The position numbers were made by a program, and so were the translations under genes. Source: Acrocarpospora catenulata (lineage in GTDB: Bacteria > Actinomycetota > Actinomycetes > Streptosporangiales > Streptosporangiaceae). Taken from it: 64,000 nucleotides of DNA. Shown piece after piece: positions 51,978-63,899 of the stretch. The notes under the pieces were generated by a model, which saw nothing but the letters and a program-made list of their open reading frames with translations, ran no database searches and was not told the origin of the DNA. How positions within the stretch are numbered: position 1 is the first letter of the stretch; every line of letters starts with the position of its first letter. The stretch covers positions 1 through 64,000 of the forward strand of contig NZ_JAHCST010000028.1 in the NCBI RefSeq assembly GCF_018476525.1. Direction: 5' to 3'.

Positions 51978-53012
51978 ATGGTGACCTTGGAAGATGTGGC
52001 GCGGCAGGCGGGGGTGTCGCTGGCGACCGCGTCCCGGGTGCTCAACGGGAGTACCCGGCAGGTGGGGGCGGCGATGCGGGCGCGGGTGGAGAAGGCCGCC
52101 GCCGAGTTGGGTTACCGGACCAATGTGGCCGCGCAGACGCTGGCGAGGGGGGCCAGCAATGTGATCGGGCTGGTGGTGCACGATCTCGTCGATCCGTACT
52201 TCGCGGCGATCGCGGATGGGGCGATGCGGACGGCGGACGCGGAGGGGCATGTGGTGATGGTGGGGACCACGCACCGCGACCCGGAGCGGGAGATCGCGTA
52301 CGTGGCCACGCTCAACGCGCAGCGGGCCAAGGCGGTGCTGCTGGCCGGGTCGCGGGTGGCCGATCCGGTGGTGACCGGGCGGCTGCGGGCCGAGTTGGAC
52401 CGGTACCGGGAGACCGGCGGGCGAGTGGCCTGTGTGGGGCAGGATCTGCTGGGCGTGGACACGGTGGCACCGGGCAACCGGGCCGGAGCCGCCGCGCTGG
52501 CCAGGGAACTGGCCGCGCTGGGCCACACGCGGTTCGCGGTGCTGGCCGGGCCGCCGAACCTGATCACCGCCGTGGACCGCAGGGACGGATTCTGCGGCGC
52601 GCTGACCGAGCTGGGCCTGCCGGACCCGCAGATCGTCTACGGCCGCTTCGACCGGGACGGCGGCTACGCCGCGGCCGCCGCCGTGGAGCCCGGCGTGACC
52701 TGCGTGTTCGCGGTCAACGACGTGATGGCGGTGGGGGCGCTCGCGGCCTTCAGGGAGCGCGGCGTCCGAGTGCCCGAGGACGTGTCGGTGGCGGGCTTCG
52801 ACGACATTCCGACGCTGCGGGACCTGGTGCCCGCGCTGACCACGGTACGGCTCCCGCTGGCCGCGATGGGCGCGCACGCGGTGGAGTTGGCGCTGTCATC
52901 GATCGGTGAATCCCGGGTAGTAGTCGTGGCCGGACAAATCGTGGTACGGGATAGTGTGCGAGACCTGCGGACCGAAATTCCGTTTGGGACGAGCGCTGGT
53001 GGTGGATCGTAA
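51978..53012 (+). CDS. LacI-family transcriptional regulator
   Basis: 344 residues. The DNA-binding head is TLEDVARQAGVSLATASRVL (2-21) followed by the hinge helix RVEKAAAELGY; the remainder is a periplasmic-binding-protein-like sugar-sensing domain (NVIGLVVHDLVDPYFAAIAD, FAVNDVMAVGALAAFRERGV, DVSVAGFDDIPTLRDLVPAL). ATG at 51978 follows GGGAGGG. It is followed after 21 bases by a sugar isomerase gene. Matching GGAAAGCGCTTTCC operators in its leader and in the 62.2-kb divergent intergenic region make it the likely repressor of the whole sugar island. Confidence 0.94.
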   Translation: MVTLEDVARQAGVSLATASRVLNGSTRQVGAAMRARVEKAAAELGYRTNVAAQTLARGASNVIGLVVHDLVDPYFAAIADGAMRTADAEGHVVMVGTTHRDPEREIAYVATLNAQRAKAVLLAGSRVADPVVTGRLRAELDRYRETGGRVACVGQDLLGVDTVAPGNRAGAAALARELAALGHTRFAVLAGPPNLITAVDRRDGFCGALTELGLPDPQIVYGRFDRDGGYAAAAAVEPGVTCVFAVNDVMAVGALAAFRERGVRVPEDVSVAGFDDIPTLRDLVPALTTVRLPLAAMGAHAVELALSSIGESRVVVVAGQIVVRDSVRDLRTEIPFGTSAGGGS

Positions 53013-53033
53013 GCGGAGAGTAAGGGGGGCGCC

Positions 53034-53804
53034 GTGAGGCTGGCGGTCAGCACGCTGGGCATGCCGGGGGAGAAGCTCCCGGCCGCGATCGTCGTCGCGT
53101 CCGGCCACGGCTGCGACGGGTTGGAACTCCGATTGCACCCGGACACCGGCGTGCACGCCGGTCTCTCGCTCCTGGAGCGTACGGCGGTGCGCCGCGCGGT
53201 GAGCGACGCCGACCTGAGCATCGCGACTCTCGCCGGATACATCAGAATCGCCCAGACGGGCCGGGACACCCCGGTGATCGAGGCGCTCCAGGCCGACCTG
53301 GAACTCGCCGCCGACCTGGGCGCACCCGCGGTCCGGGTCTTCCCCGGCGGCGACGACATCGCCGCCGGCGCCCGGCGGCTCCGCGCGGTAGCCGATTTCT
53401 GCCGGGAGCGCAGGCTGCGGGTACTGGTGGAGACCCATGACGCGCTCCCCACCGGCGCCGGCGTGGCCACCCTGCTGGACGCCGCCGACCGCCCGGAGGC
53501 CGCCGCCATCTGGGACGTGCTCCACCCGTGGCGCAACGGCGAGCCCCCCACCGACACGGTCAAGGCGCTCGGCGACCATCTGGCGTACGTGCAGATCAAG
53601 GACGCGGCCTCGGCGGCCAACCCGACCCCGCGCCGGCTCGGGTCGGGCGCGGTGCCGCTGGAGGAGTGCGGCGAGCAACTGCGCGGGTTCGGCGGCTGGG
53701 TCTCCCTGGAGTGGGAGCGCACCTGGTATCCCCAGGTCGAGCCGGTCGAACGGGTACTGCCCGGCGCGGTCGCCTGGGTGGCCCGCTACGGCTGGGGCTC
53801 CTAG
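53034..53804 (+). CDS. sugar phosphate isomerase/epimerase (AP-endonuclease-2 fold)
   Basis: 256-residue TIM-barrel enzyme of the xylose-isomerase-like/EndoIV superfamily. Motifs include GHGCDGLELRLHPDTGVHAG, VRVFPGGDDIAAGA, LRVLVETHDALPTG (metal-binding Glu and His), AAIWDVLHPW (Asp and His) and the C-terminal VSLEWERTWYP Glu. It probably interconverts keto- and aldo-sugars or hydrolyses a 3-keto-glycoside in the pathway controlled by the upstream LacI gene. GTG at 53034 with GGGGGG just upstream. A second enzyme of the same fold is encoded at 59071-59913. Confidence 0.87.
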   Translation: MRLAVSTLGMPGEKLPAAIVVASGHGCDGLELRLHPDTGVHAGLSLLERTAVRRAVSDADLSIATLAGYIRIAQTGRDTPVIEALQADLELAADLGAPAVRVFPGGDDIAAGARRLRAVADFCRERRLRVLVETHDALPTGAGVATLLDAADRPEAAAIWDVLHPWRNGEPPTDTVKALGDHLAYVQIKDAASAANPTPRRLGSGAVPLEECGEQLRGFGGWVSLEWERTWYPQVEPVERVLPGAVAWVARYGWGS

Positions 53805-53856: not shown

Positions 53857-56637
53857 ATGGCGCGTTTGTGGGTTCTCGGGCAGCTCCGGGGCGAGGTCGA
53901 GGGGCAGCCGGTCGATCTGGGCCCGCCGCTCCAGCGGGCAGTGATCTCCAGATTGGTGTGCGCCGGCGGGCACGTGGTCTCCGCCGACAGGTTGATCGAC
54001 GATCTGTGGCGGGGTCAGCCGCCGCCGAAGGCGCTGGGCGCGCTGCAGGTGTACGTATCCAACCTCCGCCGAGTCCTGGAGCCAGGCAGGGCCCCACGGA
54101 CCCCGGCCACGGTCCTGGCGAGCGCTCCGCCTGGCTACCTGCTGCGGCTTGACGACGACGCCGTCGACGGGTGGCGGTTCGCCAAGCTCGTTGGTGCCGC
54201 GGCGAACCTTCTCCATGAGGGACAGCCGGCCAAGGCGCTGCGCACGATCGACGATGCCTTGTCGCTGTGGGGAGGTCCCGCCCTCGCCGAGTTCGCCGAG
54301 GAGGAGTGGGCGGTTCTCGAGGCGTCCAAACTGGAGGGGTTGCGGGTCGACGCGGTCGAATACCGCGCGGAAGCGGCGCTTGCCGTCGGTCGTCATGTGG
54401 AGGTCGTTCCCGAGCTGGAGCGGCATGTCGCCGCCCACCCGCTTCGGGAGAACGCGGTGCGGCTCCTGGCTCTGGCCTACTACCAAGGGGGGCGGCAGTC
54501 GGAGGCGCTGGCGGCGCTGCGCAGGACCCGGGCGATGCTCGCCGATGAGCTGGGTACGGATCCCGGACCTGCGCTGAGAAAGCTCGAGGTCGACATCCTC
54601 GCTCACAACGTCGTCCTTGACGTGCCCGTGGTCGCCGCTGTTTCCGCCATTCCTGCCGAGCCGGCGTCTCAACCCGCACCGCCGTCCGGGATGATCGGCC
54701 GTGCGGCGGAGTTGGCCCGCCTGGTCTCCGCCGCCGAGCAGGCCAGGCGCGGGTTCCGGGTGGTCTGGCTCGGTGGGGATCCCGGCGCGGGCAAGAGCAC
54801 CCTGGCCGACGCCCTGCTGCGCCACCTCGGTGACGAGGGCTGGCAGGTCACGGTCGGCCGGTGTCCGGAAACGCTCGGCGGTGTGCCGCCCGCGTGGGCG
54901 TGGAGTGAGATCCTCCGCGACCTGTTCGCCGTGCACCCCCCGGACCCCGAGATCGAGGTACGGCTGGCGCCCCTGCTGGGCCACGACGCCGCGCCAGTCG
55001 GTGAGTTCTGGCTGGCGCAGGCTGTGGGGGACTACCTGGAGGGCGTGCCGGGGCCGCTGCTGCTGGTGCTTGAGGATGTACACCGCGCCGACGACGCCAC
55101 TCTCCAGTTGCTGCGTCACCTTGCGGCGAGGCTGGCCGACATCCCCGTCCTGGTGGTCTTGACGCACCGGCCCTCCGAGACGGGCGACCACCTGGTGGCG
55201 GCGGGGGCCGCCCTGGCCGTCCAGGCGGCCGAGAACGTGACCCTCCGGGGGCTCGGTGAGGACGATGTCCGCCGCCTGCTGGCGGAACGGTCCGGTATGG
55301 AGGTGGACGCGGCCATCGCCCGTACGGTCACCGAACGCACCGGGGGCAATCCGCTGTTCGTGGCCGAGACAGCCAGGTTGCTCGCGACCGAGGGGGCCTC
55401 GGCGGCTCATTCGCTGCCGCCCGGCGTCCGCGATCTCATCCGCAGGCGTATCGCCCGCCTCCCCGCGACGGCCCAGACAACCCTGCGCAACGCCGCGGTC
55501 ATGGGACGGGACGCCGACGTGGACGTGCTGATCGCCATCCAGGATGTTGACGAGGAGACGGTGCTGGACGGCCTGGAGGCGGGCGTGCTCACCGGGCTGC
55601 TCACCGAACCCAGACCCGGGCAGGTCCGCTTCACGCACGTCCTGGTCCGCGAGACCCTCTACGAGGACATCACCAGGCTGCGCCGTACCAGGCTGCACGC
55701 GAAGGTGCTCGCCGCGCTGGAGCGGCTGCGGCCGGGCGACGTCGGCGCGCTCGGCTACCACGCGCTGGCCGCCGCCACCGCCGCCACGGCCCGCGACGCC
55801 GCCGAGTACGCGCGGAGAGCGGCGACCCAGGCGTCCGGCGTGTACGCCCACCGGGAGGCGGCGGTGCTGCTGGAGGGCGCCCTAGACGCCCTCGACCTCG
55901 GGACGGAACCCGCCGACGACCTCCGGTTGGATTTGCTGTGTCGCCTGACCTCCGCGCAGGCGAGCGCGGGTGACCTGGTGCGGGCGACGGCGACACGCAA
56001 GGGTGCGCTGGCGATCGCCCGGCGGCTCGGCGACCCGGTCGCGCTCGCCCGCGCCGCGGTGGCCAACGACGCGCCCGTGATCTGGATGGGGCAGACCGAC
56101 AACGAGGTCGACATCGACCTCGTGGCGGCCATCCGCGGGTGCCTGCCCGTCGCGAGCGGCGAGCTGCGGTGCCGGCTGCTCGCCACGCTCACCCAGGAGT
56201 TGGTGGGCCACGACGACGAGCTCACGGAAAGCGCGAGCACCGAGGCCGTCGAGATCGCCCGCGGCCTCGGCGACCCCCGCTTACTGTGCCTGGCGCTCAA
56301 CGCGCGCTACTGGGTGGCATTCGTGGCCGATCGCCGCGAGGAACTGGAGGCGATCGGGCAGGAACTGCTGGAGACCTCCGTCCGCGACGGCCTGCTCGGC
56401 TACCAGACCCTCGGCCACTACGCGCTGGGCATGGTCGCGCTCGGGCGCAACGACTGGGCCACGGCCCAGAGTCACGCCGGACGGGCGCTCGAATACGCGA
56501 GGCTCAGCTGGCCGTCATCGCGTTCCCCGATGCCCTCCACCTCCTGGTCAAGGGAGAATGCGAGCGGGCTGAGGCGGCCCTTCCCGAGTTGGCGGGTGAG
56601 GCCGGCCAATCCGATACCGCCCTCCACGCAACCATGA
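53857..56637 (+). CDS. SARP/BTAD regulator with AAA ATPase domain, 3' end frameshifted
   Basis: 926 residues in the intact frame. The N-terminus is an OmpR-like DNA-binding domain (MARLWVLGQLRGEVEGQPVD, WRGQPPPKALGALQVYVSNL), followed by a bacterial transcriptional activation domain (about 100-250) and a STAND-like ATPase with Walker A GDPGAGKST (about 307-315) and LLLVLEDVHRADDAT (about 398-412), then TPR-like helices. This is the AfsR/large SARP class, often pathway-specific activators. Past about 56505 the frame gives low-complexity Pro/Ser residues while the next frame continues the helical pattern (AVIAFPDALHLLVKGECERA) to a stop at 56672. The gene is therefore frameshifted and lacks its usual C-terminal part. 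Confidence 0.88.
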   Translation: MARLWVLGQLRGEVEGQPVDLGPPLQRAVISRLVCAGGHVVSADRLIDDLWRGQPPPKALGALQVYVSNLRRVLEPGRAPRTPATVLASAPPGYLLRLDDDAVDGWRFAKLVGAAANLLHEGQPAKALRTIDDALSLWGGPALAEFAEEEWAVLEASKLEGLRVDAVEYRAEAALAVGRHVEVVPELERHVAAHPLRENAVRLLALAYYQGGRQSEALAALRRTRAMLADELGTDPGPALRKLEVDILAHNVVLDVPVVAAVSAIPAEPASQPAPPSGMIGRAAELARLVSAAEQARRGFRVVWLGGDPGAGKSTLADALLRHLGDEGWQVTVGRCPETLGGVPPAWAWSEILRDLFAVHPPDPEIEVRLAPLLGHDAAPVGEFWLAQAVGDYLEGVPGPLLLVLEDVHRADDATLQLLRHLAARLADIPVLVVLTHRPSETGDHLVAAGAALAVQAAENVTLRGLGEDDVRRLLAERSGMEVDAAIARTVTERTGGNPLFVAETARLLATEGASAAHSLPPGVRDLIRRRIARLPATAQTTLRNAAVMGRDADVDVLIAIQDVDEETVLDGLEAGVLTGLLTEPRPGQVRFTHVLVRETLYEDITRLRRTRLHAKVLAALERLRPGDVGALGYHALAAATAATARDAAEYARRAATQASGVYAHREAAVLLEGALDALDLGTEPADDLRLDLLCRLTSAQASAGDLVRATATRKGALAIARRLGDPVALARAAVANDAPVIWMGQTDNEVDIDLVAAIRGCLPVASGELRCRLLATLTQELVGHDDELTESASTEAVEIARGLGDPRLLCLALNARYWVAFVADRREELEAIGQELLETSVRDGLLGYQTLGHYALGMVALGRNDWATAQSHAGRALEYARLSWPSSRSPMPSTSWSRENASGLRRPFPSWRVRPANPIPPSTQP

Positions 56638-56654
56638 CTGCTCCGAAAAACCGG

Positions 56655-56684
56655 TTCTCTCGGGCGTACTGATCTCAGTACACT
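56655..56684 (+). promoter_or_regulatory. candidate promoter with operator dyad upstream of the EF-G-like gene
   Basis: A possible -35 TTCTCT (56655-56660) and -10 TACACT (56679-56684) are 18 bases apart. Between and overlapping the -10 is a perfect dyad, GTACTGA-TC-TCAGTAC (56666-56681), as expected for a repressor or activator site. The transcript would start near 56691 and give a leader of about 300 bases. Confidence 0.48.
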
Positions 56685-56738
56685 CGCCGCGAACGGCGCG
56701 CCGACGAGCGTGTCATTGACGAGGGAGAGGAGCCGACT

Positions 56739-56828
56739 GTGCGGCACAGCATCGCTGCGGTCATTCCCCCGTCACGGTATGAGGTGATCCTGGTGTCTTC
56801 GCCCGCCCGGTGCCGGCTGCGCGGCTGA
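56739..56828 (+). CDS. putative 29-residue leader peptide of the EF-G-like gene
   Basis: GTG at 56739 follows GGGAGAGGAG with good spacing and opens a 29-codon frame (MRHSIAAVIPPSRYEVILVS, then SPARCRLRG). Its stop lies inside the loop of a CCGGTG (56809-56814) / CACCGG (56829-56834) hairpin. Translation of the leader could therefore control folding and readthrough, as in attenuated antibiotic-resistance genes. No other feature fills the 350 bases between the SARP-like gene and the GTPase gene. Confidence 0.4.
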   Translation: MRHSIAAVIPPSRYEVILVSSPARCRLRG

Positions 56829-56990
56829 CACCGGAGACCCCGGCGGACATCTGACCTTCCTGCTCCGCGTCGAAACGGTCGGCGGGGCAATGTTCTGCTG
56901 ACGCGGTGCTGCCGCGTCGGATTTTCACGTGCCTGTCTTGTCCGGGAATCGCGCTGTCCCCAGCTGGATCGTCCTGAAGGGCCATGGGCC

Positions 56991-59024
56991 ATGCGCAACC
57001 ACACGTTCCCTGTCCGCAATCTCGGCATTCTTGCCCACGTCGATGCCGGCAAGACCACCGTCACCGAGCGGATCCTCTATCTCACCGGCACCACGCACAA
57101 GCGCGGTGAGGTGCACGACGGGACCACCGTCACCGACTTCGACTCCCAGGAGCGCGATCGTGGGATCACCATCTTCGCCGCGGCGGTGAGCTGTGTCTGG
57201 GACGGCCACCGGATCAACCTGATCGACACCCCGGGTCACGTCGACTTCGCCGCCGAGGTGACACGTTCGCTCCGGGTCCTCGACGGCGCGGTCGTGGTGT
57301 TCGACGGTGTCGCCGGGGTCGAACCGCAGAGCGAGGCGGTCTGGCGGCAGGCCGACCGGTACGGAACACCCCGGATCGCCTTCGTCAACAAACTGGATCG
57401 GGTCGGCGCCGACCTCGACGCGGTGGCCGACGCGATCCGCGCGCGACTGCACCCGACTCCGTTGGTGGTCCAGCTGCCGATCGGGCACGCGGGCGGGTTC
57501 GCCGGCGTGGTTGACCTGGTGCGGATGCGGTCGCTGATCTGGGCCGACGGCCGCGACACGGTCCGCGAGGGCCAGGTGCCGCACATCCTGTGGAGCGAGG
57601 CCCAGCGGCGTCGCCGCCTACTGGAGGAGGCGGTCGCCGAACGGCACGCGAACGCGTTGGAGGAGTTCTGCGCGGAGTCGACGATCTCCGCCCCGACTCT
57701 CGCCGCCGCGCTCCGCGACCTGACCCTCACCGGCGAGGGCGTGGTGGTGCTGTGCGGATCGGCCTACCGCAATCGCGGAATCGAGCCGCTGCTCGACGCC
57801 GTCGTGTCCTACCTGCCCGGACCTCAGGATGTCCCTGCGGTACGCGGCACCCATGGGCAGGAGCGCGCCCCCGATCCCGGGGCTCCGCTGGCGGCGCTGG
57901 TGTTCAAGGTGTCCTCGAACGCCACCGGACGCCTCGCTCACCTGCGCGTGTATTCGGGAACGATCGAGAAGGGAGACACGGTGCTGGACACCGGTACGGG
58001 ACGTACGGAGCGGATCGGACGGATCCTGCGGGTCCAAGCCGATCGCCACACCGAGGCGGACCGGGCGGTGGCCGGGGACATCGTCGCGGTGGTCGGGCTG
58101 AAGGCGGTGCGTGCCGGTACCACGCTGTGCGCGCCCGGGGCTCCGTTGGTCCTCGAACCGCCGGGTACGACCGACCCGCTCGTTTCCGTGGCCGTCGAAG
58201 CCAGGCGGAGCACCGACACCGACCGGCTGGCGGCGGCGCTGGCGCGGCTGACCGAGGAGGATCCTTCGCTGGTGGTCCGGACCGCCGAGACCGGTCAGAC
58301 GCTGCTGTCGGGGATGGGCGAACTGCACCTGGAGGTTGCCGTGGAGAAGATCCGCCGGACCGCGCGCCTCGACGTCAACGTGGGCCGGCCACGGGTGGCC
58401 TACCGGGAGACGGTGGTCCAGGGCGTGTCCGGGCTGGTGTACCGCCACGTCAAACAGGACGGCGGCGCCGGTCAGTTCGCCCATGTCGTGCTCGATGTGG
58501 CGCCGCTGGAGTCCACCGAGGGCTTCGAGTTCCACTCGGCCGTCGTGGGCGGCCGGGTGCCGAAGGAGTACGTCCGGGCAGTGGAGGCAGGCGCCAGGGA
58601 CGCCCTGGCCGAGGGCCCGCTCGGCGGCCACCCGGTGACCGGCCTGCGCGTCACGCTGCTCGACGGGGCCACCCACCCGAAGGACTCCTCCGAGCTCGCC
58701 TTCCGTACGGCGGGCAGGCTCGGCCTCAGGGAGGCCCTGCGGGCCGCGACGATGGCGCTGCTCGAACCGGTGGCCGAGGTCACGGTGACCGTGCCGGAGG
58801 CCGACGTCGGCGGGGTGCTGGGCGATCTGGCGGCACGGCGCGGCCGCGTCACCGGCTCGACCGCGCGGGCGGGCACGGCGGTCGTCACCGCGATCGTGCC
58901 GCTGGCCGAGACGTTCGGCTACGCGACCCGCCTGCGCAGCCGTACCCACGGCCAGGGGACCTTCACGACCAGGTCCGCCGGTTACGCCCCGGTGGGCACT
59001 GCCGCGGCGGGGAAGTCCCGCTAG
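56991..59024 (+). CDS. EF-G-like translational GTPase (paralogue or ribosomal protection type)
   Basis: 677 residues with the five-domain EF-G layout. G1 is AHVDAGKTT (15-23), the switch region is [10 protein letters not shown]3 is DTPGHVDF (about 78-85), G4 is NKLD (about 132-135). Domain IV and V motifs ([60 protein letters not shown]) are present. It is not the housekeeping copy, which would sit in the str operon beside tuf, and has features shared with Tet-type ribosomal protection proteins and secondary EF-G forms. A regulated leader and an adjacent SARP-like gene suggest a stress- or antibiotic-linked role (inference). A strong terminator follows. Confidence 0.85.
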
Positions 59025-59070: not shown

Positions 59071-59913
59071 TCAGGCAGGCCCGAGGTCGGGGGCGATCAG
59101 CCGGGCGTAGCGGTCGCGGGTGGTGGTCAGGACGGTCTCCGGGTCGGCGGCCCAGAGGTCGGCGTTGAAGATCTCGACCTCGATGTCGCCGGCGTACCCG
59201 GTCTCGGCCACCGCCCGGGTGAGCGGGGTGAAGTCGATCACGCCGTCGCCCATCATGCCCCGGCCGAGCAGGACGTCGGCGGGGAGGGGGACGAGGAAGT
59301 CGCAGACCTGGTAGCTCGCGATCCGGGTTCCGGCGCGGGCGATCTGCGGGAGCACGTCGGGATCCCACCACAGGTGGAAGGTGTCCACGACGACGCCGAC
59401 CACCTCGGGCGGGTACGGCTCCGCGAGGTCGAGCGCCTGGGCCAGGGTGGAGAGCACCGCCCGGTCGGCACAGTACATCGGGTGGAGGGGTTCCAGCGCC
59501 AGCCGTACGCCACGGTCGGCGGCGTAGGGGGCCAGTGTGGCGAGCGCGTCGGCCACCCGGGCGCGGGCGGCGGGCAGGTCGCGGGAGAAGGTGCCGAGGG
59601 GTTCGCCGGGGATCACGCCCGGGAGGCCGCCCACCACCATGACGAGACAGGCGGCCTGGAGCGCCGCGGCCTCGTCGATCGCGCGGCGGTTGTCGGCGAG
59701 GGGGTCGGGGCCGGTCAGGAAGCCGCCGCGGCAGAGTGAGGAGACCCGCAGGCCGGCGTTCTGGACCAGTTTCACCGTCTCGTCCAGGCCCTGTTGGGCG
59801 ACGTCCTGCCGCCAGAGGCCGATGGCGCCGACGCCGTGCCGGACGCAGCCGGCGACCGCCTCGGCGACCGTCCAGCGCCGGGTCGTCCACTGGTTGAGGG
59901 AGAGGCGGTTCAC
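59071..59913 (-). CDS. sugar phosphate isomerase/epimerase
   Basis: 280-residue TIM-barrel enzyme. Motifs of the xylose-isomerase-like family are LSLNQWTTRRWTVAEAVAGC at the start, VRLALEPLHPMYCADRAVLS (metal Glu), VGVVVDTFHLWWDPDV (Asp/His) and DIEVEIFNADLWA (last metal Glu). It is last in a three-gene leftward operon: Gfo/Idh dehydrogenase, DUF993 protein, isomerase, all with 4-base overlaps (ATGA here with the DUF993 stop). Likely acts on the product of the dehydrogenase or aldolase step. Confidence 0.9.
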   Translation of the reverse strand: MNRLSLNQWTTRRWTVAEAVAGCVRHGVGAIGLWRQDVAQQGLDETVKLVQNAGLRVSSLCRGGFLTGPDPLADNRRAIDEAAALQAACLVMVVGGLPGVIPGEPLGTFSRDLPAARARVADALATLAPYAADRGVRLALEPLHPMYCADRAVLSTLAQALDLAEPYPPEVVGVVVDTFHLWWDPDVLPQIARAGTRIASYQVCDFLVPLPADVLLGRGMMGDGVIDFTPLTRAVAETGYAGDIEVEIFNADLWAADPETVLTTTRDRYARLIAPDLGPA

Positions 59914-61082
59914 CGGCCGTGCACCGCGAGGAGGGCGCGCATGCGGTACGCGGCGAGGTCCGGGTCGGTCAGCAGCCCGGCCTGGTCGGCCAGCCGGAAC
60001 ACCTCGGCCAGGTGGGGCAGCGACCGGGCCGACTGGGCGCCGTTGACCATGGTGAACGCGGGCTGGTGGCCGTTGAGCCAGGCCAGGAAGACGATTCCGG
60101 TCTTGTAGTGGTAGGTGGGCGCTTCGAAGATCTTCCGAGACAGCGCAACGGTTGGTCCGAATATTTCGTGATATTTCGCGAGGTCGGCCGCACGCCCGCT
60201 GCCGACGGTTTCTGTTTCGGCTTGGTCGAGGGCGTGGAGGGCGGCTGCGGCGGCTGGGGCGATGGCGTCGAAAATGCCGAGAAGCGCGTGTGAGCCTGAG
60301 GCGATCAGCGACGGATAGTTGAAGTCGTCACCCGTGTAGACCCGCACCCCCGGCGGCAGCGCCGCCCGTAGCCGGATCTCGTGGTCCTCGTCCAGCAGGG
60401 AGACCTTGACCCCGTCGATCCGGGCGGCGTTGGCGTGGATCAACTCCAGAAAGGACGCGGTGGCCGCCGCCACGTCACGCGCCCCCCAGTAACCCGCCAG
60501 CTGAGGATCGAACATCTCACCCAGCCAGTGCAGGATCACCGGACGGTCCACCTCGGCCAGCAGCTTGCCGTAGACCGCGTGATAGTCCGAGGGGGTACGC
60601 GCGACCGCCGCCAGCTGCCGGCTGGCCATGATGATCACCCCGGCCCCGGCCTCCTGGACGGTGGCGATCTGCTCCCGGTAGGCGGCCTCGATGGCCGGGA
60701 GGGTGCGCGCCTCCGGCAGATGATCGGTCCCCGCCCCACAGGCCACCAGCTCCGCCGGATCCCCGAAGTCCCGCGCCAGCTCGGCGGTCCGCCGGATCAG
60801 CTCCCGGGTGGCAGCCCAGTCCAGCCCGTTGTTCCGCTGCGCGGTGTCCATGGCCTCGGCCACCCGCAGCCCGTACGACCAGAGGTGCCGCCGGAACCCC
60901 AGCGTGGCCGCCCAGTCCAGCGCGGCCGGCGCCCCGGGCGTGTTGTCCCGCAGCGGATCGGCCACCACATGCGCCGCAGCGTACGCCACCCGCCCGGCGG
61001 GGGGACCCTCCGGCTGCTCCCAGACGACGGGTGAGCGGAGCGGGTACCGCCCCAGGCCCGGCAGTTCCACGACCGCGCTCAC
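59910..61082 (-). CDS. DUF993 family (dihydrodipicolinate-synthase-like) protein
   Basis: 390 residues with an aldolase-type barrel: VVELPGLGRYPLRSP start, ACGAGTDHLPEARTLPAIEA, AGAGVIIMASRQLAAVAR, VILHWLGEMFDPQLAGYWGA, and ARIDGVKVSLLDEDHEIRLR with the Lys that would form the Schiff base in class I aldolases. The family is typically between a Gfo/Idh dehydrogenase and a sugar isomerase, as here. Expected to cleave or rearrange an oxidised sugar acid; substrate unknown. GTG at 61082 overlaps the dehydrogenase stop (GTGA). Confidence 0.88.
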   Translation of the reverse strand: MSAVVELPGLGRYPLRSPVVWEQPEGPPAGRVAYAAAHVVADPLRDNTPGAPAALDWAATLGFRRHLWSYGLRVAEAMDTAQRNNGLDWAATRELIRRTAELARDFGDPAELVACGAGTDHLPEARTLPAIEAAYREQIATVQEAGAGVIIMASRQLAAVARTPSDYHAVYGKLLAEVDRPVILHWLGEMFDPQLAGYWGARDVAAATASFLELIHANAARIDGVKVSLLDEDHEIRLRAALPPGVRVYTGDDFNYPSLIASGSHALLGIFDAIAPAAAAALHALDQAETETVGSGRAADLAKYHEIFGPTVALSRKIFEAPTYHYKTGIVFLAWLNGHQPAFTMVNGAQSARSLPHLAEVFRLADQAGLLTDPDLAAYRMRALLAVHGR

Positions 61083-62218
61083 AGGTCGGTCACCGCCAGC
61101 CGCCGCCCCTCCGCGTGCGAGCGCAGCCCGAGCTCGGCGAGTTGCACCCCGCGAGCCCCGGCCCGCAGCGTGTACGGGAACGGGGTGCCCGCCAGCACAT
61201 GCCGCACGAACATCTCCCACTGGATCTTGAACCCGTTGTCGAACTCCCCGTTATCCGGAATTTCCGACCAACCATCGCGGAACCGGGTGTCGGCTGGAAT
61301 ATCGGGATTCCAGACCGGCTTGGGGGTCACGCTGCGATGCTGCACCCGGCACCCTCGCAGCCCGGCCACCGCGCTCCCATGGGTCCCGTCCACCTGGAAC
61401 TCCACCAACTCATCCCGATGCACCCGCACCGCCCAGGAGGAGTTGATCTGTGCCACCACCCCCCCTTCCAGCTCGAAGATCCCGTACGCCGCGTCGTCGG
61501 CGGTCGCCTTGTACCGCTGCCCCCGCTCGTTCCACCGCTCCGGAACATGCGTGCTGACCTGCGCGTACACCGAAACCACCCGCCCGAACAGGTTCTCCAG
61601 GACATACGCCCAGTGCGGGAACATGTCCAGCACGATCCCGCCCCCGTCCTCGGCCCGGTAGTTCCAGGACGGGCGCTGCGCGGCCTGCCAGTCGCCTTCG
61701 AAGACCCAGTAGCCGAACTCACCGCGTACCGACAGGATCTGCCCGAAGAACCCGCCGTCGATGAGCCGCTTCAACTTCAGCAGCCCCGGCAGGAAGAGCT
61801 TGTCCTGCACCACGCCGTTGCACACCCGCGTCTCCTCGGCGGCCCGCGCCAGCCGGATCGCGTCCGCCACCGTCTCGGCGGTCGGCTTCTCGGTGTAGAC
61901 ATGCTTGCCGGCCGCGATGGCCTTCAGGGTGGCATCCACCCGGGCGGGGGTGACCTGGGCGTCGAAGTAGATCTCGGCGTCGGCCAGCGCGGCGTCCAGG
62001 TCGGTGGTGTGGTCGGGGATGCCGTGCCGTTCGGCGATCTCGGCCAGCTTGGCGGCGTTGCGCCCGACCAGGATCGGCCGCAGCCGGACCCGTTGCCCGG
62101 TGGGCAGGTCCACCCCGCCCTGCGCGTTGATGGCCAGCACGGATCGCACCAGATGCTGCCGGTACCCCATCCGTCCGGTGACGCCGTTCAACACGACGCT
62201 GAGCACACGGTCGCCCAT
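61079..62218 (-). CDS. Gfo/Idh/MocA-family sugar oxidoreductase
   Basis: 379-residue NAD(P)-dependent dehydrogenase. N-terminal Rossmann fold: VVLNGVTGRMGYRQHLVRSV, with a long strand 2 region IALRPILVGRN-like, then the family motif GKHVYTEKPTAETVADAIRL whose Lys is catalytic. The C-terminal alpha/beta domain follows (GGGIVLDMFPHWAYVLENLF). Probably oxidises the sugar at C1 or C3. ATG at 62218 is preferred over GTG at 62221 because AAGGAG is then five bases away. First gene of the leftward operon, with a LacI-type operator 16 bases upstream. Confidence 0.9.
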   Translation of the reverse strand: MGDRVLSVVLNGVTGRMGYRQHLVRSVLAINAQGGVDLPTGQRVRLRPILVGRNAAKLAEIAERHGIPDHTTDLDAALADAEIYFDAQVTPARVDATLKAIAAGKHVYTEKPTAETVADAIRLARAAEETRVCNGVVQDKLFLPGLLKLKRLIDGGFFGQILSVRGEFGYWVFEGDWQAAQRPSWNYRAEDGGGIVLDMFPHWAYVLENLFGRVVSVYAQVSTHVPERWNERGQRYKATADDAAYGIFELEGGVVAQINSSWAVRVHRDELVEFQVDGTHGSAVAGLRGCRVQHRSVTPKPVWNPDIPADTRFRDGWSEIPDNGEFDNGFKIQWEMFVRHVLAGTPFPYTLRAGARGVQLAELGLRSHAEGRRLAVTDL

Positions 62219-62233
62219 CACATCTCCTTGAGT

Positions 62234-62247
62234 GGAAAGCGCTTTCC
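62234..62247. promoter_or_regulatory. perfect LacI-type operator
   Basis: GGAAAGCGCTTTCC is a perfect 14-bp palindrome, the classical LacI/GalR site with central CG. It lies just before the Gfo/Idh start in the divergent intergenic region and matches the site in front of the LacI gene at 51954-51967 with one difference. Confidence 0.85.
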
Positions 62248-62277
62248 GCTCCTAGGGTAGGAGTCCGTGACTGGGTC

Positions 62278-62291
62278 GGCAAGCGCTTTCC
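62278..62291. promoter_or_regulatory. second LacI-type operator
   Basis: GGCAAGCGCTTTCC differs from the perfect dyad by one base and is 44 bases (about four helical turns) away from it, so two repressor dimers could bind on one face. It faces the GH13 gene that starts at 62343. Confidence 0.75.
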
Positions 62292-62342
62292 GAGCAGGTT
62301 GGCTGATTAACTTGGCGAAGTACGTACGAACAGGGAGAACCC

Positions 62343-63899
62343 GTGACCCAATGGTGGCGTGACGCCGTCGTCTACCAGATCTACCCCCGTAGCTTCGCCG
62401 ACGGCAACGGCGACGGCACGGGCGACTTCGCCGGCGCGCTGGCCCGGCTGCCGTACCTCGCCGAACTCGGCGTGGACGCGGTCTGGTTCTCGCCCTTCTA
62501 CCCGTCCCCGCTCGCCGACGGCGGCTACGACGTGGCCGACTACTGCGACGTGGACCCCAGGTTCGGTACCCTGGCCGACTTCGACGCCTTCGTCGCGGCG
62601 GCGGCCGAGCTGGGCATCCGGGTGATCGTCGACATCGTGCCCAACCACTGCTCCAGCGCCCACCCGGCCTTCCAGGCCGCGCTGGCCGCCGGGCCCGGCA
62701 GTCCCGAGCGCGACCTGTTCATCTTCCGGGACGCCCCCAACAACTGGCAGTCCGTCTTCGGCGGCCCCGCCTGGACGCAGACCCCGGACGGCCAGTGGTA
62801 CCTGCACCTGTTCGACTCCTCCCAGCCCGACTGGAACTGGTCCAACCCGGCGGTGCCCGCCCTGTTCGAGAAGGTGCTCCGGTTCTGGCTGGACCGGGGC
62901 GTGGCCGGACTCCGGGTGGACGTCGCGCACGGCCTGTTCAAGGACCCGGACCTGCCCGACGTGCCCGACCCGTCCCCCTCCGACCGGCCCTCACCCTGGT
63001 TCCACCGGCCCGAGCTGATCGAGCACTACGCCGGCTGGCGGGCCATCCTGGACTCCTACCCGGAGGACGTGTTCCCCGGCAGGCGTACCGCGGTGGGGGA
63101 GTTCTGGGGTGACGAGATCACCCACCTGGAGCCGTACTTCATCCCCGGCGGCATGCCGCAGGCGTTCAACTTCTTCCTCTTCCGCACCGCCTGGAACGCC
63201 CCCGCCCTGCACCACACCATCACCGCCTCCATCGCACTGGCCGACGGCTCCGACGTGGTCGCCCCCTGGGTGATCAGCAACCACGACGTGATGCGCCCGG
63301 TCAGCCGGTACGGCGGCTCCCCCGAGGCCCGCTCCGACGCCGAGGTGGACCTGGCCCTCGGCACCCGCCGCGCCCGCGCCGCCGCCCTGCTGCTGCTCGC
63401 GCTGCCCGGCTCCGCCTACGTCTACCAGGGCGAGGAGCTCGCCCTGCCGGAGTACCTGGACATCCAGGACGCCGACCGCGACGACCCGGTCTTCCGCCGC
63501 ACCGGCGGCGCCCGCCTCGGCCGCGACGGCTGCCGTGTCCCGATGCCCTGGTCCGGCACGCGGGCCCCGTACGGCTTCGGCGACAACCCCGACACCTGGC
63601 TGCCCCAGCCCCCCAACTGGGCCCCGCTCACGGTGGAGGCCCAGCTGGACGACCCGGACTCCACGCTCTCCCTCTACCGGAAGGCGATCGCCCACCGGCC
63701 CAAGGGCGAGTTCCACTGGCTGGAGCCCGAGCCCACCGCCCTGGCCTTCACCCGGGGCGCCGGCTTCGCCTGCGTGGTCAACTTCGGCGGCGACCCGGTC
63801 GCCCTCCCCGACCACGAGGAGATCATCCTGGCCAGCGGCCCGGTCACCGGCGGCACCCTGCCGCAGGACACCGCCGTCTGGCTGCGACTCAACCCGTGA
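62343..63899 (+). CDS. GH13 alpha-glucosidase/alpha-amylase family enzyme
   Basis: 518 residues, cytosolic (no signal). The (beta/alpha)8 catalytic motifs are in order: DIVPNHCSS (region I), GLRVDVAHGLF with the Asp nucleophile (about 200), AVGEFWGDE with the Glu acid/base, and VISNHDVMRP with the transition-state Asp. Start WWRDAVVYQIYPRSFADGNG is standard for oligo-1,6- or alpha-glucosidases of actinomycetes. It would release glucose from an imported alpha-glucoside. GTG at 62343 follows CAGGGAG. Divergent from the Gfo/Idh operon, with two LacI operators between. Confidence 0.94.
   Translation: MTQWWRDAVVYQIYPRSFADGNGDGTGDFAGALARLPYLAELGVDAVWFSPFYPSPLADGGYDVADYCDVDPRFGTLADFDAFVAAAAELGIRVIVDIVPNHCSSAHPAFQAALAAGPGSPERDLFIFRDAPNNWQSVFGGPAWTQTPDGQWYLHLFDSSQPDWNWSNPAVPALFEKVLRFWLDRGVAGLRVDVAHGLFKDPDLPDVPDPSPSDRPSPWFHRPELIEHYAGWRAILDSYPEDVFPGRRTAVGEFWGDEITHLEPYFIPGGMPQAFNFFLFRTAWNAPALHHTITASIALADGSDVVAPWVISNHDVMRPVSRYGGSPEARSDAEVDLALGTRRARAAALLLLALPGSAYVYQGEELALPEYLDIQDADRDDPVFRRTGGARLGRDGCRVPMPWSGTRAPYGFGDNPDTWLPQPPNWAPLTVEAQLDDPDSTLSLYRKAIAHRPKGEFHWLEPEPTALAFTRGAGFACVVNFGGDPVALPDHEEIILASGPVTGGTLPQDTAVWLRLNP

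Follow-up and report, generated by a model that had tools for sequence, protein, structure and literature searches.

What does a third gene for elongation factor G (EF-G) do behind a short leader reading frame, and what would turn it on? The question is raised by a locus of Acrocarpospora catenulata, which lies in a GC-rich stretch of 64,000 nucleotides (64 kb; here called the window, meaning the whole stretch that was analysed) from a genome of 10.3 Mb. The preliminary description of this DNA had placed an operator, a promoter and an attenuating leader peptide before a GTPase that might be an inducible ribosome-protection factor. Here we consider in turn the gene product, its relatives, the promoter, the leader and the RNA behind it, and then how these parts might work together.

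The gene product is of EF-G type

56991-59024, plus strand: EF-G-type GTPase of 677 aa, one of three EF-G-like genes in this genome

The 677-aa product contains the full EF-G set of Pfam domains (GTP_EFTU, D2, III, IV and the C-terminal domain) and passes the cut-off of the canonical EF-G model TIGR00484 (754.8 bits against 659.4). The P-loop and switch II residues typical of a working EF-G are kept in it. Also kept is the domain IV tip of EF-G, H..DSSE, in place of which Tet-like proteins have a different and longer loop. The domain IV histidine is present in 64/64 clade members (the clade being the group of close relatives described below) and in 74/74 other EF-Gs. Within the same genome, the product is 51% identical to that of canonical fusA and 36% identical to an EF-G2-like protein. 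The canonical gene adjoins a tuf-like match. As judged from its sequence, the product is a spare EF-G of canonical type and a putative working translocase. With canonical EF-G it has in common the domains, the GTPase motifs, the domain IV His and DSSE; it differs in having only about 50% identity, no tuf neighbor, a number of fixed differences and changes in the drug pocket.

In a tree, the clade forms a single group with a support of 99, set apart from the canonical EF-Gs and the Tet-like proteins; the tree was made by a quick method with 30 of the 65 clade rows, and in it EF-G2 sits on a very long branch with an unsure position. Checked against the Tet, FusB and EF-G2 families, as the preliminary description had proposed, the protein fits none. 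EF-G2 identity was rejected by score (PRK12740.1-1: 471.8 bits, cut-off 890), and the staphylococcal FusB type on the ground that FusB is a separate two-domain protein that binds EF-G, whereas the window protein is EF-G itself. The idea that the gene encodes a ribosome-protection protein of Tet type behind a classical leader draws on a similarity of 371.8 bits to the tet_protect model, but that score is under the cut-off of 775, the domain IV tip is that of EF-G, and in the tree the protein is separate from the Tet-like rows (four in number, all of them under the curated tet_protect cut-off, the best at 707 bits). This idea is largely refuted already, and we regard it as extremely improbable. 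The earlier Tet-like reading may have been wrong in family and yet near in function.

On the upstream side of the locus, an AfsR/SARP-type regulator (53863-56672; BTAD and AAA domains) has an end that looks broken: as read by eye, the ORF reaching to 56637 passes near 56500 into the ORF 56139-56672, and the second frame has no family match. Probable sugar-metabolism genes flank the locus at 51978-53804 and 59071-63899, with no visible link to translation; among them are a LacI-type regulator, an ORF weakly matching sugar epimerases and, by eye, an alpha-glucosidase-like ORF.

The clade is patchily distributed

At E ≤1e-220, relatives were found in 28/200 genomes drawn from the source family and in 95/199 drawn from a second genus. 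Five named Streptomyces records (L016-L019, L021) have the gene with 76-78% identity, which is our reason for equating the second genus with Streptomyces. The gene is present also in Actinoplanes aureus (69% identity). Of five genomes of the genus Acrocarpospora, two besides that of the window have the gene (77-78%), one has a broken copy and one has none. The spread of the clade is patchy. The broken copy (L015, genome G001) has suffered an internal loss, matching only residues 8-286 and 504-653; its leader is nonetheless intact and similar, so that a decaying copy exists within the same genus. A more distant gene, L046, is 54% identical, falls outside the clade in the tree and has no such leader; it was excluded from the 65 loci on which the counts below are based.

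A promoter resembling the WblC/WhiB7 kind

56645-56684, plus strand: WblC/WhiB7-like promoter by resemblance to the consensus (GAAAAAC box, TTCTCT, TACACT)
56666-56681, no strand assigned: perfect 7+7 dyad GTACTGA-TC-TCAGTAC, judged to be a chance occurrence

The consensus for WblC promoters has been given as GAAAWY-N3-TKGMNN-N16-19-TANNNT (PMC7157823). The window has AAAAAC at 56646-56651, then 3 bp, a -35 TTCTCT at 56655-56660, 18 bp, and a -10 TACACT at 56679-56684. The spacing and the -10 fit the consensus. One base of the AT-rich box is mismatched, and the -35 agrees at two of the four named positions and is mismatched at the other two. A loose form of the promoter (box, spacing and -10, with the -35 left free) occurs at 49/65 loci against 0.07 expected in shuffles, and the strict box at 25/65 against 0.03; these are probably undercounts, since at the 11 loci without a pattern-anchored leader the promoter was scanned in a fixed stretch and some were probably missed. 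The window matches the loose form only. The -10 candidate of the preliminary description is borne out; TACACT recurs in the relatives. A scan for sigma-70 promoters found none, but the consensus used by that scan does not cover WblC promoters.

The dyad that overlaps the -10 is present as described earlier; its reading as an operator did not survive. Among 55 loci where the -10 was found, the dyad is seen in the window only and is absent from the 54 others, two of which have unrelated 6+6 dyads. The window as a whole has 99 perfect dyads (arms of at least 7, spacer 0-6), compared to 75-86 in three shuffles. An operator was therefore rejected, the dyad being a chance occurrence that is not conserved in relatives.

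The genome of the window encodes a WhiB protein (L218) with GVWGG and a C-terminal RPRGRPRK, which are described as marks of WblC/WhiB7 (PMC4921905). WblC binding at the window promoter and its induction by drugs are putative; the one study of these matters concerns S. coelicolor (PMC7157823). In Streptomyces coelicolor, fusB (SCO6589), tetM, fusA and SCO1528 are named as EF-G paralogues, and WblC-activated genes and their paralogues are said to respond differently to tetracycline; the order of the names in that account suggests that fusB and tetM are the WblC-activated ones, and fusidic acid is among the drugs for which MICs were measured (PMC7157823). From the kinds of EF-G-like genes present in such genomes, SCO6589 is probably the orthologue of the clade gene of the window. 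Authors of another study suppose fusB to be a possible substitute for fusA when the latter is mutated (PMC9282665). The WblC regulon of S. coelicolor, in whose account fusB, tuf3 and tetM appear, resembles the present case in promoter layout and in the naming of an EF-G paralogue, and differs in that the word “leader” has no occurrence in the main text of the regulon paper (PMC7157823).

The leader peptide is conserved in one frame

56721-56732, plus strand: leader ribosome-binding site GAGGGAGAGGAG, purine-rich, in the same place before the leaders of the printed relatives
56739-56828, plus strand: leader ORF of 29 codons, VRHSIAAVIPPSRYEVILVSSPARCRLRG, with a GTG start at 56739 and a TGA stop at 56826-56828
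56772-56801, plus strand: core codons S-R-Y-E-V-I-L-V-S-S, with the candidate stall site V-S at 56793-56798

A leader lies upstream of the EF-G gene at 64/65 clade loci, 54 found by pattern and 10 by reading, and in its typical form is [V/M]R.R[TI]AVVxPxSR[YH]EVILVS. Eight of the 10 found by reading retain the V-[IL]-L-V-S end; the leaders of L147 and L162 are shortened to VRDRTAVILLSS. In the second genus, these counts cover the upstream DNA of 30 of the 95 clade-bearing genomes. The sole clade locus with no leader is L103 (genome G031), which retains the element found 3′ to the leader elsewhere; no promoter box was seen by eye in its 430 upstream bases, a stretch that looks repetitive. In a subset of the loci, leader lengths range from 29 to 39 codons, and the gap between leader stop and EF-G gene from 55 to 365 nt.

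At 34 loci, the core residues were counted as S 33, R 33, Y/H/F 34, E 31, V 33, I 33, L 33, V 33 and S 34, with 19 for the last S. The leader alignment displays 27 of these 34 loci, omitting L010, L109, L112, L113, L116, L119 and L117 (L117 is identical to L106 across 21 residues). SR[YHF]EVILVS is thus nearly invariant as protein at these 34 loci, and its codons vary. Of the single-base codon differences in the core, 2294/3295 (0.70) are synonymous in the leader frame, as opposed to 330/3373 (0.10) and 216/3127 (0.07) in the other two frames; the comparisons are among 52 distinct cores from 54 loci, which share ancestry, so the events behind the counts are not independent. Averaged over pairs of cores, the difference is 0.078 at the first codon position, 0.065 at the second and 0.295 at the third. 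Such a frame-specific excess of synonymous changes is the result expected from selection on the peptide. The 29-codon leader with a good ribosome-binding site, first noticed in the window alone, is accordingly real, its frame-specific constraint being far above chance.

The hydrophobic end of the core brings to mind the leaders of macrolide resistance genes. The leader has VILV before Ser, and at residues 5-8 it has [IT]A[VA]V, whose form [IT]AVV is like the IAVV motif of ErmAL. ErmCL-type leaders carry an attenuating hairpin behind the arrest peptide. Stalling in ErmCL needs the hydrophobic stretch IFVI at residues 6-9 (PMC5915450). One could suppose from these likenesses that the leader is an ErmCL/ErmAL-type attenuator, in which VILV|S or [IT]AVV would arrest the ribosome only when a macrolide or a similar tunnel drug is present. 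However, R, Y/H and E are among the best conserved residues; the stall would come at codon 19, later than in ErmCL; and it is not obvious how an EF-G would relieve a macrolide block. ErmCL also has another sequence and precedes another gene, and arrest in the present leader is putative. We consider the macrolide explanation quite unlikely.

Among the genomes searched, the leader occurs with this gene alone

A profile of the leader was searched against genomes at two levels. In 396 genomes of the phylum, 12 matches were obtained at E ≤0.01, and eight of these, including one at E 0.004, adjoin a clade gene. The remaining four are weak (E 0.0045-0.0076), have no adjoining clade gene and look like noise. 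In 199 genomes of the second genus, 64 matches were obtained at E ≤1e-5; for 59 of them a clade gene follows on the same strand, 151-317 nt downstream, and three more (G392, G661, G712) were placed before a clade gene by reading. The match in G610 is at a contig end, and the EF-G gene of that genome starts at the end of another contig. The leader of G606 seemed to be away from its EF-G gene, a candidate exception that was rejected as a misassembly: adapter-like letters AAGAGACAG, which we take to be Nextera, are present at both ends of the split locus (L191 and L192). Another 34 clade-bearing genomes of the second genus gave no profile match at E ≤1e-5; upstream DNA was fetched for 11 of them, and all 11 carry the leader, mostly in diverged form. 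In sum, among the 396 phylum and 199 second-genus genomes, no confident copy of the leader was found away from a clade EF-G gene.

The main texts of the open-licence PMC papers searched contained no report of the leader, and the strings EVILVS or YEVILV appear there in one paper, on pepper. The leader family appears to be undescribed in the open literature searched. Its general kind is already known, that is, drug-sensing leader peptides and WblC-controlled paralogues.

Beyond the peptide core it is the RNA that is kept

56807-56834, plus strand: hairpin 1, CCGGTGCCGGC-TGCGCG-GCTGACACCGG, identified by covariation
56898-56920, plus strand: a second, terminator-like inverted repeat, CTGACGCGG-TGCTG-CCGCGTCGG, with ATTTTC behind it
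56945-56959, plus strand: conserved element GGAATCGCGCTGTCC, whose core TCGCGC is complementary to the hairpin 1 loop GCGCGG
56976-56981, plus strand: ribosome-binding site of the EF-G gene, GAAGGG, 9 bases before the ATG at 56991

Past VSS comes hairpin 1, with the consensus CCGGYGCC-GGC-YGCGCG-GCC-GGCRCCGG. In 38 distinct sequences out of 54, 381/418 cells pair (shuffle mean 361, maximum 369) and 8/11 pairs have changes on both sides; when the partner strand is slid by 1 or 2, pairing falls to 0.21-0.41. The stem starts 14 nt past the first base of the V codon of VS at 38 loci, as it does in the window, 16 nt at 15 loci and 13 nt at one. The 2-nt difference shifts the reading frame through the hairpin, giving RCRLRG in some leaders and GAGRAAG in others. 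Since the frame there differs between relatives, it is the RNA and not the peptide that is kept after VS. The constraint, as the alignments indicate, is on the peptide as far as VS and on the RNA beyond. The leader was earlier said to end inside a hairpin loop: the stop codon is indeed within a conserved hairpin in the window, but in its 3′ arm rather than its loop, and in most relatives it is beyond the hairpin.

The same facts bear on whether the short ORF simply encodes a functional small protein that is co-expressed with EF-G. In-frame conservation is what one would expect of such a protein, but the frame through the C-terminal third changes between relatives and the length varies from one leader to another, and we hold the proposal to be very unlikely.

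It should be noted that hairpin 1 does not stand out by energy or by family: the fold energy of 56780-56880 is not unusual (z 0.57; 139/200 shuffles at least as good), and Rfam gave no match in 56400-57100 at E up to 1. Further downstream, stems of at least 6 bp are present within the 56 nt before the 3′ element at 25/63 loci as opposed to about 9 expected, and at 9/63 loci there is no stem of even 4 bp; at loci with a short gap (e.g., L009 and L010) the stem found belongs to hairpin 1. A terminator scan found none and did not report the 56898-56920 repeat.

The leader region is closed by a conserved (A)TCGCGC block. Its core was found by script at 62/65 loci (TCGCGC 54, TTGCGC 7, ACGCGC 1) and by eye also in L096 and L107; it is absent in L020. 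By letters, a kissing contact is possible between the hairpin 1 loop GCGCGG and TCGCGC; both are nearly invariant, so there is no countable covariation. In L020 (Actinoplanes aureus), the locus without the 3′ TCGCGC, the hairpin 1 loop is altered too, as a loop contact predicts, although this is a single case. At the 62 loci, a stem around the element is no better than with permuted flanks (32/62 with at least 4 bp, about 29.6 when permuted), and RNAalifold gave no structure for the block. GGAATCGCGCTGTCC has one exact copy in the source genome (G000). Near-copies with up to 2 mismatches occur at 56 places compared to 12 for the reversed control, about five times more commonly; the excess is possibly due to codon usage.

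In a fold test that covered 52 of the 54 loci, the predicted openness of the ribosome-binding site of the EF-G gene is the same whether the leader ribosome is stalled or has finished. Since terminator-like stems are enriched and the folds for release of the ribosome-binding site were negative, we infer that transcription attenuation is somewhat likelier than translational control.

These results have to be weighed against a simpler possibility, that WblC alone controls the gene and that the leader, constitutively translated, insulates it or couples translation (by reinitiation or by protection from Rho), with no stalling involved. The promoter match is in keeping with this, as are the leader stop-to-gene gap and the failure of the fold test to find a coupling structure. 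What it does not account for is that amino acids of the core are conserved beyond the need for a mere open frame, and coupling alone leaves unexplained why the frame is free past VS. We find this possibility unlikely, if still to be taken seriously.

The clade departs from other EF-Gs at fusidic-acid-linked positions

Clade (64 rows) and canonical (28 rows) proteins differ at 32/227 columns, the 227 being those at least 95% uniform in both sets. Seven of the 32 fall at residues 46-63, which we take to be switch I. Changes are seen also at positions linked to fusidic acid in Staphylococcus aureus EF-G (PMC12493156, PMC12073777), the numbering being transferred via match ranges to Thermus and S. 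aureus structures. The counts are for 64 of the 65 clade members, the truncated L015 being excluded. The equivalent of L461 is A in 64/64 clade members and L/I/V in 74/74 other EF-Gs; that of R464 is K in 56/64 and R in 74/74; and that of V90 is D in 60/64 and V/I/A/M in 74/74. The window protein has A, K and A, respectively. It does not have the D of the clade at V90, and the A there is found in 10/74 other EF-Gs as well, so that two of the three pocket positions are changed in the window. F88, L456 and H457 are unchanged. The substitutions described for fusidic acid are L461K/S and V90I, and the two accounts disagree as to whether L461 contacts the drug directly (PMC12493156, PMC12073777). 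The clade paralogue is perhaps insensitive to fusidic acid.

How the gene might be switched on

A stress-responsive leader, the inducible element suspected from the start, has become the most likely interpretation, given that the peptide is conserved in one frame, its presence is specific to this gene in the genomes searched, the hairpin covaries, and the promoter is WblC/WhiB7-like. We are inclined, with somewhat more belief than doubt, to see in the locus a stress-inducible spare EF-G under two layers of control, WblC and leader stalling. In the first layer, inhibition of translation would turn the gene on through the WblC/WhiB7-dependent promoter. In the second, the C-terminal motif SRYEVILVS would arrest or slow the ribosome at V-S under stress. 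A ribosome running through the leader would open hairpin 1, and one held at V-S would leave it folded. RNase R is halted 17 nt downstream of the P site (PMC6238534), and by this measure a ribosome whose P site holds V would extend roughly to where the stem begins. The folded hairpin would raise EF-G expression, via relief either of termination or of poor initiation, and the paralogue with its altered fusidic-acid pocket would take over from the inhibited housekeeping EF-G. Activation that depends on stalling seems to us, by a modest degree, probable; both the stalling and the direction of the switch are read from sequence patterns.

A more specific form of this scheme is that the candidate SRYEVILVS arrest peptide monitors EF-G itself. 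A block of the housekeeping factor by fusidic-acid-like or other translocation inhibitors would stop the leader ribosome at V-S, and the cell would then make a replacement EF-G with a rebuilt drug pocket. We offer this form as a speculation, more doubtful than otherwise by a wide measure.

The leader of the wblC gene offers a comparison, and Lee et al. (2022) is reportedly a study of that uORF. The attenuation at whiB7/wblC is likewise actinomycete, with an antibiotic-responsive uORF and an auto-regulated WblC promoter (PMC7157823); it concerns another gene, and the likeness is one of description. The ABC-F leaders of Streptomyces (tiaA, are5sc) also have a uORF and a drug-sensing ribosome in the 5′ UTR, as is proposed here, but as described their uORFs are very short, with a stall at the start codon, whereas here a long, sequence-specific core lies late in the leader (PMC12421871).

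In closing, work on the WblC stress regulon of S. coelicolor mentions an EF-G paralogue (PMC7157823) whose role is putative. The leader, as a candidate arrest peptide, would add to the arrest-type peptides one with a new and sharply defined motif. Together with the pocket changes, it makes for a concrete and quickly testable idea, namely that stalled ribosomes turn on a translocase that tolerates the drug. If the EF-G-sensing form is true, the locus would form a circuit that bypasses the target, its leader detecting the failure of the very factor that the gene replaces.
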